From assembly GCF_025950085.1 (NCBI RefSeq), contig NZ_JAPDDS010000002.1, forward strand, positions 62,001 to 126,000: a stretch of 64,000 nt of DNA, read 5' to 3'. This stretch comes from Luteolibacter flavescens. Its GTDB lineage: Bacteria; Verrucomicrobiota; Verrucomicrobiia; Verrucomicrobiales; Akkermansiaceae. The notes below the pieces were generated by a model. The model ran no database searches. It saw only the letters and a program-made list of their open reading frames with translations, and was not told the origin of the DNA. Numbering within the stretch: position 1 is the first letter of the stretch; each line of letters starts with the position of its first letter. Position numbers and translations under genes: made by a program. Positions 44,889 to 48,508 of this stretch are shown here, piece by piece.

Positions 44889-44922
44889 ATCGCGTTGTCC
44901 CGCTTTTGAGGGACAACGCGAT
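44889..44922 (-). terminator. Rho-independent terminator after pfkB
   Basis: A 13-bp perfect stem, ATCGCGTTGTCCC (44889-44901) with GGGACAACGCGAT (44910-44922), has an 8-base loop. Leftward it continues as TTTTCG. It closes the accB-accC-thiE-pfkB run. Confidence 0.9.
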
Positions 44923-44983
44923 CTGAGAATCTGCCAAGGGGGAATTTCGGCGCAGGAGTCCGTGAAGACCGCCGCGAACGTCC

Positions 44984-45946
44984 TCACCAAGTGGTGACGG
45001 CGCGGAAGCGGTCCATGCGGGCTTGGAGACCTGCGGCGTCGAGTGCTTCGAGGCCGCGGGTCGAGAAGGACTCGCAGGTGAAGGAGGCGACCACGGAGCC
45101 GTAGACGACCGCCTGGCGCAGGGTATCGAAGTCTGGCTTGGTGGAGCCCTTGGCCGCCAGATAGCCGGCGAGGCCGCCGAGGAAGCAGTCGCCGGCCCCG
45201 GTCGGGTCGGTGAGTTCCTCGATCGGGTAGGCGTGGCTGCGGAAGAATTGTTCCTGGCCGCCCTCGTTCGAGAAGAGCATCGCGCCGTATTCACCGAGCT
45301 TGATGACGACGTGGCGCGGGCCCTTGGCAAGGAGCTGGCGACCGGCCTGGAGGAGATTCGACGTGCGGGTGAACTCGCGGGCCTCGCTGTCATTGATGAC
45401 GAAGAGGTCGAGCTGCTTCAGGACATCGTGGAGGCGGTCGTTTGCGATCTCGATCCACAGGTCCATGGTGTCGGCGATGACGAAGCGGTCGGCCGCTTGG
45501 CACTGCGAGAGCATCTGGAGCTGATTGTCCGGCGACATGTTTGCCAGCACGACGAAGGCGGACGAGGCGGCACTGGCAGGGACCTTCACTTCCCAGCTCT
45601 CCAGCACGTTGAGGCCGACGCGGTGGGTCGTGCGCTCGTTCATGTTGTTGAAATACTCGCCGGACCAGGTGAAGGAGTCGCCTTCCGAGCGCTCGACGCC
45701 ATCGAGGGAAATGCCGCGGCCCTCCAGCATCGCGAGGTGCGGGGCGGGGAAATCCTTGCCGACGATGCCGACGAGATTGACCGGCACGCCGGAGAAGGAG
45801 GCGGCCAAGGCAGCGTAGGCGGCGGAGCCACCGAGGAGATTGGTTTCGTCGGCGAAGGGCGTCTTGACGTTGTCGATGGCGATGGTGCCGCCGACCACGA
45901 TTGAGGATTGCGGATTGCGGACTTCGGATTGATTCTCGGCGGACAT
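44984..45946 (-). CDS. PfkB-family carbohydrate/nucleoside kinase
   Basis: 320 aa ribokinase-fold enzyme. The N-terminal signature is LLGGSAAYAALAASFSGVPV and LVGIVGKDFPAPHLAMLEGR. The C-terminal catalytic signature is ELTDPTGAGDCFLGGLAGYL, with the base Asp. Substrate could be ribose, adenosine or a similar sugar; the sequence does not tell. The first 16 residues (MSAENQSEVRNPQSSI) are not conserved and are encoded by the left inverted repeat of an inserted element. A GTG at 45898, exactly at the repeat edge, would start at VVGGTIAIDNV and may be the ancestral start. Confidence 0.9.
   Translation of the reverse strand: MSAENQSEVRNPQSSIVVGGTIAIDNVKTPFADETNLLGGSAAYAALAASFSGVPVNLVGIVGKDFPAPHLAMLEGRGISLDGVERSEGDSFTWSGEYFNNMNERTTHRVGLNVLESWEVKVPASAASSAFVVLANMSPDNQLQMLSQCQAADRFVIADTMDLWIEIANDRLHDVLKQLDLFVINDSEAREFTRTSNLLQAGRQLLAKGPRHVVIKLGEYGAMLFSNEGGQEQFFRSHAYPIEELTDPTGAGDCFLGGLAGYLAAKGSTKPDFDTLRQAVVYGSVVASFTCESFSTRGLEALDAAGLQARMDRFRAVTTW
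45899..45932 (+). repeat. 34-bp inverted repeat flanking the four-helix-bundle gene (left end)
   Basis: The core GGATTGCGGATTGCGGA has an 8-bp internal period and is followed by CTTCGGATTGA. It is the inverted counterpart of 46330-46363, with 30 of 34 positions matching. It overlaps the first codons of the PfkB kinase. Confidence 0.9.
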
Positions 45947-45957
45947 GATGGGTGGGG

Positions 45958-46314
45958 TCAGGCGCGTTTGCGTTTGGCGGTGGTAATGGAAGAGATCACC
46001 ATGGCGACGATCTCGTTCGCCTCGGCGATCAAGGGTTCCAAACGCTTGGCAGGCAAGAGTTTCGCGCGGACGATCACCTCAAGCCAGTAAGCAGACTCAT
46101 CCGCCTCTTCTTCGACAATGGCCATCTTGTGGATGAAGTCAGCGCTGCTCTTCGCACGACATGCGGCGCGGTAATTGGCTCCGACGGACGTGCCGGAGCG
46201 ACAAAGCTGTCCGGCGACGGTCTTCCCCTTGGTGGACTTGGGGAGGGCATCGACCACATCGATGACCCTGAGGCCGAACAACATCGTGCGTTCTTTGAAC
46301 TCCGCGGCATTCAT
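45958..46314 (-). CDS. Four-helix-bundle (S23/IVS-type) protein
   Basis: 118 aa from the ATG at 46314; a GTG three bases upstream is possible. It is all helical, with EFKERTMLFGLRVIDVVDAL, AGQLCRSGTSVGANYRAACR, SSADFIHKMAIVEEEADESA and AYWLEVIVRAKLLPAKRLEP. The motif R...SVGANYRAA is the diagnostic signature of the TIGR02436 four-helix bundle family. That family includes proteins encoded by the intervening sequences of 23S rRNA genes and the Avd protein of diversity-generating retroelements. Here it sits between two 34-bp inverted repeats, 11 bp before pfkB and 15 bp after thiE. Its role is unknown; nucleic-acid binding is known for relatives. Confidence 0.9.
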   Translation of the reverse strand: MNAAEFKERTMLFGLRVIDVVDALPKSTKGKTVAGQLCRSGTSVGANYRAACRAKSSADFIHKMAIVEEEADESAYWLEVIVRAKLLPAKRLEPLIAEANEIVAMVISSITTAKRKRA

Positions 46315-46329
46315 CACGCCGCCATCTTC

Positions 46330-46363
46330 TCAATCCACAGTCCGCAATCCGCAATCCGCGATC
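46330..46363 (-). repeat. 34-bp inverted repeat flanking the four-helix-bundle gene (right end)
   Basis: On the minus strand it reads GATCGCGGATTGCGGATTGC and then GGACTGTGGATTGA. It differs from the left end (45899-45932) at four positions. It encodes the last ten residues of ThiE (IADCGLRTVD) and its stop codon. Confidence 0.9.
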
Positions 46364-46977
46364 GCCCGCTTCACCATGGCGGTCGCCCCTACGACATCCT
46401 CAGCCGTGAGCAGATCTGAAACGATCACCACGTTCCTCGCGCCGGCCTCGAGGACTTGCGGGAGGTTGTCGCGCTTGATGCCGCCGATGCAGAAGACGGG
46501 GATCTGCGAGCCGACTTCGGCCTGGACGGCAGCGACATTTTCGATGCCGATGCCTGGACGGCCGAGCTTGGTGGGTGTCGGGAAAAGCGGGCCGAAGCCG
46601 ATGTAGTCAAAGCCTTCGGCCAAGGCGGCGCGGGCTTGATCCGGCGAATGCGTCGAGCGGCCGACGAGCATGTCCGGCCCGACGATCTCCTGGACGGCGG
46701 CGAGTGTGCCGTCGTCCTGGCCGATGTGGATGCCATCCGCGCCGACAGCAGCGGCGATGGCCGGGTAGTCATTCACGATGAAGGGCACGCCGGCCTCGCG
46801 GCAGAGCGGCAGGAGCAGGCGGGCAAGGCGCTCGATCTCCCCGGGCTCGTGGCCCTTTGCCCGGAGCTGGAGCAAGTCGGCACCCCCGGCAAGAAGGTCC
46901 CCGGTGACGGTCTCCGCATTCTCCGCGGAGACGTAGCCGAGATCGAGGATGGCGTAGAGCTGGCCGGAGAGCTTCAT
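46330..46977 (-). CDS. thiE: Thiamine-phosphate synthase ThiE
   Basis: 215 aa. It joins HMP-pyrophosphate and thiazole phosphate to give thiamine monophosphate. Motifs are LLQLRAKGHEPGEIERLAR, FIVNDYPAIAAAVGADGIHI, the HIGQDD segment, STHSPDQARAALAEGFDYIG, FGPLFPTPTK and VFCIGGIKRDNLPQVLEAGA. The C-terminal IADCGLRTVD is encoded by the right inverted repeat of the adjacent element and is unlike normal ThiE tails. The gene lies between accC and the four-helix-bundle gene on the same strand. Confidence 0.92.
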   Translation of the reverse strand: MKLSGQLYAILDLGYVSAENAETVTGDLLAGGADLLQLRAKGHEPGEIERLARLLLPLCREAGVPFIVNDYPAIAAAVGADGIHIGQDDGTLAAVQEIVGPDMLVGRSTHSPDQARAALAEGFDYIGFGPLFPTPTKLGRPGIGIENVAAVQAEVGSQIPVFCIGGIKRDNLPQVLEAGARNVVIVSDLLTAEDVVGATAMVKRAIADCGLRTVD

Positions 46978-47047
46978 GGGATGACGACGGAGCGCCCATC
47001 ACCGGACCGGCGCAGCCGTTCCGTTGCACAGGATCCGCTGCATGGGT

Positions 47048-48400
<1,353 letters not shown>

Positions 48401-48420
48401 GGATGAGTGGGTAGATGCTG

Positions 48421-48508
48421 GATGGGAGATGGTGGATGGTAGATCCCTAGGACGAGCCCGGTGACAAAGGCGGCACCGGCTTCTATCTGCCATCCGCCAT
48501 CTACCATC
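48421..48508. repeat. Inverted 24-bp repeat between accB and accC
   Basis: GATGGGAGATGGTGGATGGT plus AGAT (48421-48444) is inverted at 48485-48508, with 21 of 24 positions matching. The arms have an 8-bp-like internal period of GATGG and GGATG, reminiscent of the GGATTGC repeats around the four-helix-bundle gene. The 40-bp loop also contains the small hairpin AGCCCGGTG/CACCGGCT. It could affect relative expression of the two subunits. Confidence 0.75.

Follow-up and report, generated by a model that had tools for sequence, protein, structure and literature searches.

According to the available part of PMC4990558, the intervening sequence (IVS) in the 23S rRNA of Coxiella burnetii comprises 428 nt and carries an S23 ORF, described as decaying, together with a 28-bp terminal stem that is cut by RNase III and has tandem heptamers at one end. 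In RAYT/REPIN systems, as described in the accessible sections of PMC2817692, a tyrosine transposase gene is flanked by two inverted REPs, the repeat type tracks the phylogeny of the protein, and gene-free copies of the repeats occur elsewhere, often as inverted pairs. Heptamer arrays are known from Xanthomonas (GGGAATC) and Nostoc (GGGGAYT); based on excerpts of PMC4692102, they lie next to ORF ends, some of them overlapping stop codons, inverted pairs number 70 and 75 in two genomes of Xanthomonas and are few in Nostoc, and the Xanthomonas arrays are not linked to mobile elements and lie in regions of increased stability.

Here, we present a computational analysis of a locus in Luteolibacter flavescens in which an S23/IVP-type gene lies between two inverted heptamer arrays; "the window" refers to the whole stretch of 64,000 nt that was analyzed. 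We assign a probability of roughly 0.55 to the reading that this unit is a member of a widespread two-part system, consisting of a conserved S23/IVP four-helix gene and inverted, clade-typical heptamer arrays, in which the protein recognizes the heptamers and maintains or spreads them. By analogy, it may best be read as a gene-repeat system that resembles RAYT/REPIN but has no known transposase, and the 23S rRNA IVSs may be one case of it. Heptamers in Nostoc were reportedly described by Elhai et al. in 2008, and bAvd of diversity-generating retroelements is a four-helix protein whose fold we take to be related to that of the window protein; no pair of template and variable repeats was noticed at the window unit.

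The window unit has a total size of 467 nt and is placed between the co-directional genes thiE and pfkB (Table 1). Its arms are the longest inverted repeat between 45700 and 46600 (35 nt, 89% complementary, 397 nt apart; 30/34 matches in a 34-nt version), while the next independent pair has 20 nt at 75%, and pairs I2-I5 are register shifts of the main pair. The first-pass annotation, made from the sequence alone, had described 34-bp inverted repeats with 30/34 matches around an IVS-type gene, and these are indeed the strongest pair in the region. It had also given the repeat GGATTGC a period of 8 bp; however, the repeat unit counts 7 letters and recurs every 7 bp. In the 64-kb window, lag 7 at 20/28 picks out three stretches, i.e., both arms and 48410-48444, while among the other lags from 4 to 14, lag 9 gives two stretches, lag 12 gives one, and the remainder none. 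The third lag-7 stretch belongs to a single GGATGGT-type array (48406-48446) just upstream of a biotin carboxylase gene, with no four-helix gene among the neighboring genes listed.

Table 1. Coordinates of the four-helix unit and its neighbor genes in the window
Feature	Positions	Strand	Remarks
Left inverted arm	45898..45932	.	Five GGATTGC-type heptamers; inside PfkB frame, codons about 5-16
Right inverted arm	46330..46364	.	GGATTGC-type heptamers; codes last ten ThiE residues and stop codon
Four-helix bundle gene (TIGR02436 / PF05635 23S_rRNA_IVP)	45958..46317	-	Start GTG at 46317 or ATG at 46314
Spacer, left arm to four-helix gene	45933..45957	-	Contains PfkB ATG (45946-45944)
thiE, thiamine phosphate synthase	46330..46977	-	TIGR00693, E 3.6e-55; 3' end is the right arm
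pfkB-family carbohydrate kinase	44984..45946	-	PF00294, E 6e-29; 5' coding end passes through left arm

The ORF between the arms matches TIGR02436 (E 1.6e-24) and Pfam 23S_rRNA_IVP (PF05635; E 4.7e-17), and the closest solved structure by sequence is 2rld (E 3.1e-19). Both neighbor genes are open, and the PfkB frame continues across the left arm (about NQSEVRNPQSSI) to VVGG. Here the sequence and the ORFs agree with the first-pass annotation, which had assigned the end of ThiE to the right repeat and the PfkB residues ahead of VVGG to the left repeat, with a GTG at its edge (45898-45896, minus strand) and both genes open. Profile searches of the window unit returned only the TIGR02436-type and PF05635 matches and no transposase, and the Y1 tyrosine transposase profile (PF01797) had no match between the arms. 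Based on RNA fold prediction, the coding-strand RNA of the unit folds far better than shuffled sequences (z -6.27), with the arms paired.

As in the 23S rRNA IVSs, an S23/IVP-family ORF lies within terminal inverted repeats that form a stem, and the sizes are similar (428 nt for the Coxiella IVS as given in the available text and 467 nt here). However, the window unit lies between protein genes rather than in rRNA, its arms supply coding ends of its neighbors, and four-helix units at large use many heptamer words and encode proteins under purifying selection (see below), whereas the Coxiella ORF is described in that text as decaying. Strict membership among the rRNA IVSs is ruled out for the window unit because it is not in rRNA; Rfam gave no match in 44900-47100, and likewise none in 20 other loci. 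The differences from RAYT/REPIN systems, as far as the latter are covered by the accessible sections, are that the protein is a four-helix bundle rather than a tyrosine transposase, that the repeats are heptamer arrays rather than short palindromes, and that the system extends over several phyla. The likeness is that the gene lies between inverted cognate repeats, that the repeat word follows the protein, and that gene-free copies of one word, AGTAGGC, are often paired. The Xanthomonas and Nostoc arrays resemble the four-helix arms in being heptamer arrays at ORF ends and in forming inverted pairs; they differ in that they are described as sequence repeats without a protein partner, and no S23 or four-helix term occurs in the excerpts of PMC4692102. 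Among the matches listed in the open-licence literature, none links four-helix/S23 genes to heptamer arrays outside rRNA.

The unit is present or absent at one and the same gene junction, with both neighbor genes open. When the thiE-pfkB junction is aligned, five genomes of the same genus that share the order thiE->pfkB show a short gap without the four-helix gene (G007, G009, G012, G003, and G015); their PfkB proteins are 95% (G007), 89% (G009), and 81-82% (G012, G003, and G015) identical to that of the window. ThiE of G009 ends in ...ALAGC before the stop codon (GCGGGTTGCTGA) compared with ...AIADCGLRTVD in the window (GCGGATTGCGGA...), arguing that the array begins at a sequence that was already heptamer-like. 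PfkB of G009 starts with MSSPLPIVVGG compared with MSAEN-[array]-IVVGG in the window, which places the PfkB ATG of the window in the spacer that separates the left arm from the four-helix gene. Since this ATG falls within the arms, and since PfkB of the relatives begins at a comparable ATG, the data do not establish that a single 465-bp block was simply inserted. Thus, of the first-pass claim that a unit of about 465 bp had inserted between the genes, the absence of the unit from five relatives stands, while loss in the relatives would explain the pattern as well as insertion here. We also saw no target-site duplication when the junctions of the window unit were compared with the relatives, as had been noted before.

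The lack of a transposase and of a visible target duplication sets the window unit apart from classical insertion sequences and MITEs, and, together with the PfkB ATG inside the arms, leads us to reject one 465-bp block moved by a standard transposon as a full account. In a broader form of this idea, a standard transposon or MITE would be moved by a transposase acting in trans, with the four-helix gene as a passenger. Inverted terminal arms and presence/absence at a junction would be expected from such an element; however, we consider it very improbable because there is no transposase in the unit and no target duplication at its junctions, and because loci differ in their arm sequences in parallel with their four-helix proteins.

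In the second gene order (pfkB-> <-thiE), the gap contains a four-helix gene in G013 and lacks it in G016, G002, G001, and G017. In G014, the four-helix gene lies between pfkB and a bioD-like gene and has GGATTGC arms. The four-helix proteins of the window, G013, and G014 are 62-69% identical, a divergence about that of the PfkB proteins, supporting that an old unit with repeated loss fits as well as repeated gain. The pfkB gene of G013 (L107:1035-2111) contains an in-frame insert of two inverted GGATYGC arrays, i.e., a hairpin, and its 358-residue frame stays open. Other words are also found in this gap: in G004 (L136:2466-2620), about 17 copies of GGTCAGT fill the pfkB/thiE gap without a four-helix gene, and the thiE-pfkB gap of G007 has a weak array (15/21 at lag 7). 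These gaps, the heptamer-like ThiE end of G009, and the gene-free arrays that are common in some genomes such as G013 are what one would expect if heptamer microsatellites, generated by slippage at gene ends, existed beforehand and served as targets, with four-helix cassettes of unknown mobility recombining into or between them. We regard this explanation as improbable on the evidence of the arms and their words given below.

Beyond this locus, the four-helix gene usually lies between two heptamer arrays in inverted orientation. When the repeat was sought beside TIGR02436 genes of the own genome and of relatives, inverted repeats with a score of at least 14 were found to flank 54/71 loci, compared with 2/124 sham pairs of identical geometry within the same loci; at a score of at least 16, the counts are 45/71 and 0/124. 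The 71 loci are strong TIGR02436 matches, not a random sample (5 from the own genome, 26 untruncated best-per-genome matches, and 40 next-ranked among the matches listed). In the analysis as a whole, loci L075, L085, and L118-L121 were selected by their arms and L107 by its array. Lag 7 at 20/28 occurs in 33/71 loci and 0/124 sham pairs, while lags 4-6 and 8-11 at this threshold occur in 0 to 2 of the 71 loci, with lag 9 in 3/124 sham pairs. In a gene-centered control with 24 pfkB genes, a single score from their flanks exceeded 11 (14.5, L146). In the genomes of L118-L120, for which there is no sham set, 14/15 scored loci reach 16; of the 23 rows, 5 are truncated and L205, L212, and L213 were excluded, and the 15 include L204, L208, and L194, which are the same places as L118, L119, and L120.

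In Pseudomonadota, 13/21 four-helix units score at least 14, compared with 0/84 sham pairs, and the remaining 8/21 score below 14 (flank width 250 rather than the 200 used elsewhere; 2 truncated rows and fragments dropped). All 14 plasmid loci fetched, drawn from up to 39 plasmid records, score at least 16, compared with 1/56 sham pairs, although the lowest scores (16-17) are near the single high sham score of 16.5. They cover five phyla, i.e., Cyanobacteriota (two loci each in Planktothrix and Nostoc and one each in Calothrix, Anabaena, Gloeocapsa, Pseudanabaena, and Geminocystis), Chloroflexota (two in Chlorohelix), Bacteroidota (Bernardetia), Spirochaetota (Treponema), and Gemmatimonadota (Gemmatirosa). 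Twelve of the 14 have lag 7 at 20/28, and Gemmatirosa has period 8. When the window protein alone was used to query the phylum (387 genomes), 129 genomes gave matches; among the best 30 loci, 28 are untruncated, and 26 of these 28, which count the window unit and G014, have arms. When all units are pooled, arms scoring at least 14 are present in 104/128 (without the duplicates L204 and L208 and without partial genes); adding back six of these partial genes (L214, L230, L231, and L236 below 14; L210 and L211 above 14) gives 106/134, and removing the six arm- or array-selected units leaves 98/122 units and 44/54 sites with arms. Thus, there is a protein-gene counterpart of the rRNA IVSs as the first-pass annotation had envisaged, and it occurs far more widely than this annotation had supposed (54/71, 13/21, 26/28, and 14/14). 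The sham controls rule out a chance repeat; chance and assembly artifacts together have a negligible probability, since sham pairs seldom score so high (2/124, 0/84, and 1/56) and many independent assemblies show this architecture.

The arms of L232, L234, and L337 have an 8-bp period instead of a 7-bp period (AGTAGGGC; GGAGGGCA). By annotation, plasmid four-helix genes lie inside single gene clusters (L327, L328, L329, L332, L333, L335, L336, and L339), some of them with genes for a DISARM-type helicase, MmeI, DUF1156/Swt1, or an N-6 methylase as neighbors; the others in this group lie between CRISPR genes (csx2/cas1 and cas6/cas4) or between ribonucleotide reductase genes. With an L120-type protein as the sole query, no four-helix relative was matched in phage records.

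The array word tends to track the protein clade at unrelated sites and in different phyla. In the arms of 18/26 window-clade units (the window and G014 excluded), GATT recurs at multiples of 7, compared with 0/89 others, a set without L007, without six units that were selected by their arms or array, and without six basal relatives of the window clade (L161, L168, L170, L178, L182, and L229). Consistently, protein identity correlates with arm composition (Mantel r 0.42, with 0/5000 permutations as high) in a sample of 46 sites with one representative per site and any flank homology collapsed, and this correlation is unchanged after removing flank composition. Five units, four of which had been found by their arms, form a GGATTGC clade (support 97/93) that extends over the genus of the window, another family of its order, and Gemmatimonadota; related proteins with the same word thus occur at unrelated sites in different phyla. 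One exception is L120/L194, with GGATTGC arms and yet a protein only 22% identical to that of the window. Another is Planktothrix, and weakly Bernardetia, in which the direction of the GATT word is reversed. Microsatellites that were mere targets would account neither for a word that follows the protein clade nor for the inverted orientation of the arms on either side of the gene and their likeness to each other unit by unit.

In one bacterial group, gene-free arrays and hairpins of one word are found only in genomes with the matching gene. In a scan of 80 of 100 Pseudomonadota genomes, including all 18 that bear the gene, AGTAGGCAGTAGGCAGTAGG (at most 2 mismatches) is present in four (G100, G131, G135, and G151), and these are the genomes whose readable four-helix unit has AGTAGGC arms (Fisher 6e-7; three are close relatives). 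In G131, the unit (L239) has one clear AGTAGGC arm and a score of 12, and in the truncated units L226 and L235 the arms are not readable. None of the 76 genomes without AGTAGGC-armed four-helix genes contains AGTAGGC arrays, which also argues against microsatellites as pre-existing targets. Among the matches listed, a genome has 5 to 12 AGTAGGC sites, counting those at the gene. In G131, G135, and G151, each of the 7 gene-free AGTAGGC sites fetched consists of an inverted pair, two of these sites being orthologous to each other, and at 5/7 a mechanically called ORF ends 1-11 nt into the array, although this placement is noisy in GC-rich DNA; in G100, the three gene-free sites that were fetched each hold a single array.

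For GGATTGC, the association is not significant: among 77 relatives of the window, arrays are present in 8/16 genomes with and 14/61 without a window-clade gene (p 0.059). In the own genome, GGATTGC arrays were found at the thiE-pfkB unit only, at the search stringency used. The first-pass annotation had counted repeats unlinked to the gene family as evidence against its reading. Heptamer arrays without a four-helix gene do exist, i.e., 16/17 array sites fetched from G013 have no such gene within about 1.5 kb, and in L121:1-527 long inverted GGATTGC-type arrays surround a non-coding CAGTCCA-type tandem repeat without a recognizable four-helix gene; elsewhere, however, the link to the gene family is strong.

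Many units are inherited vertically at fixed sites with collinear flanks, and both arms of a locus change together. In 104/118 orthologous pairs, the arms within a locus are more alike than compared with the arms of the orthologue (mean score 21.4 versus 13.0); the 118 are those of 141 pairs in which both arms score at least 12, the pairs are not independent, and the arms were picked by maximizing the within-locus score. At one locus, four genomes have GGTGATC arms (L006, L183, L186, and L190), while a fifth has AGTTTTC arms (L180); L169 has AGTTTTC arms as in L180 and one flank in common. Such concerted change argues that pairing is maintained, through either gene conversion or selection that favors the stem. 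The four-helix protein is under purifying selection, with dN/dS of 0 to 0.09 in nine pairs (12 pairs in total, of which one is not computable and two are saturated; five of the nine have dS above 1), supporting that the protein is used. Although the first-pass annotation had suggested that the unit may be mobile, we saw no movement: in addition to the vertical inheritance of many units, the one dispersed AGTAGGC hairpin for which an empty site was sought is common to three relatives. The lack of a link to mobile elements and the increased stability described for the Xanthomonas arrays in the excerpts of PMC4692102 speak against the two-part system.

The strong RNA stem, the concerted arms, and vertical inheritance would also fit a cis-acting RNA device that is not mobile. 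In such a device, RNase III or the four-helix protein itself would use the stem around the four-helix message to isolate or autoregulate this message, dispersed hairpins would be targets of its regulon, and selection for pairing would keep the arms alike. The position of arrays at gene ends, here and in the excerpts of PMC4692102, and the cutting of the Coxiella IVS stem by RNase III reported in the available part of PMC4990558 point in the same direction. However, a stem needs no 7-bp periodicity, and this explanation sits poorly with presence/absence at thiE-pfkB among close relatives, with the in-frame hairpin within pfkB of G013, and with the same word next to related proteins at unrelated sites in different phyla. 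We therefore consider the cis-acting device a possible but unlikely explanation.

In the two-part system that we favor, the four-helix protein would recognize its own heptamers, probably as a paired stem in RNA or extruded DNA, and would maintain or spread them, much like a RAYT with its REPs, so that arrays standing alone would represent non-autonomous copies. In the joint thiE-pfkB message, the arms of the window are predicted to pair into a long stem, which would be a likely RNase III target as in the 23S rRNA IVSs. By analogy to the cutting of the Coxiella IVS described in the available part of PMC4990558, the strength of the predicted stem makes cutting of the thiE-pfkB message at the arms plausible.

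More generally, we tentatively propose, at slightly less than even odds, that S23/IVP four-helix proteins are keepers of heptamer arrays across bacteria and a transposase-free counterpart of RAYT/REPIN, with each clade recognizing and spreading its own 7-bp word, and with the 23S rRNA IVSs and the Xanthomonas and Nostoc arrays as special cases. If this is true, it would give a role to the common "four helix bundle protein" family of unknown function and explain heptamer arrays that have so far been reported without explanation. Moreover, the origin of the 23S rRNA IVSs would become testable, with the heptamer being predictable from the protein.
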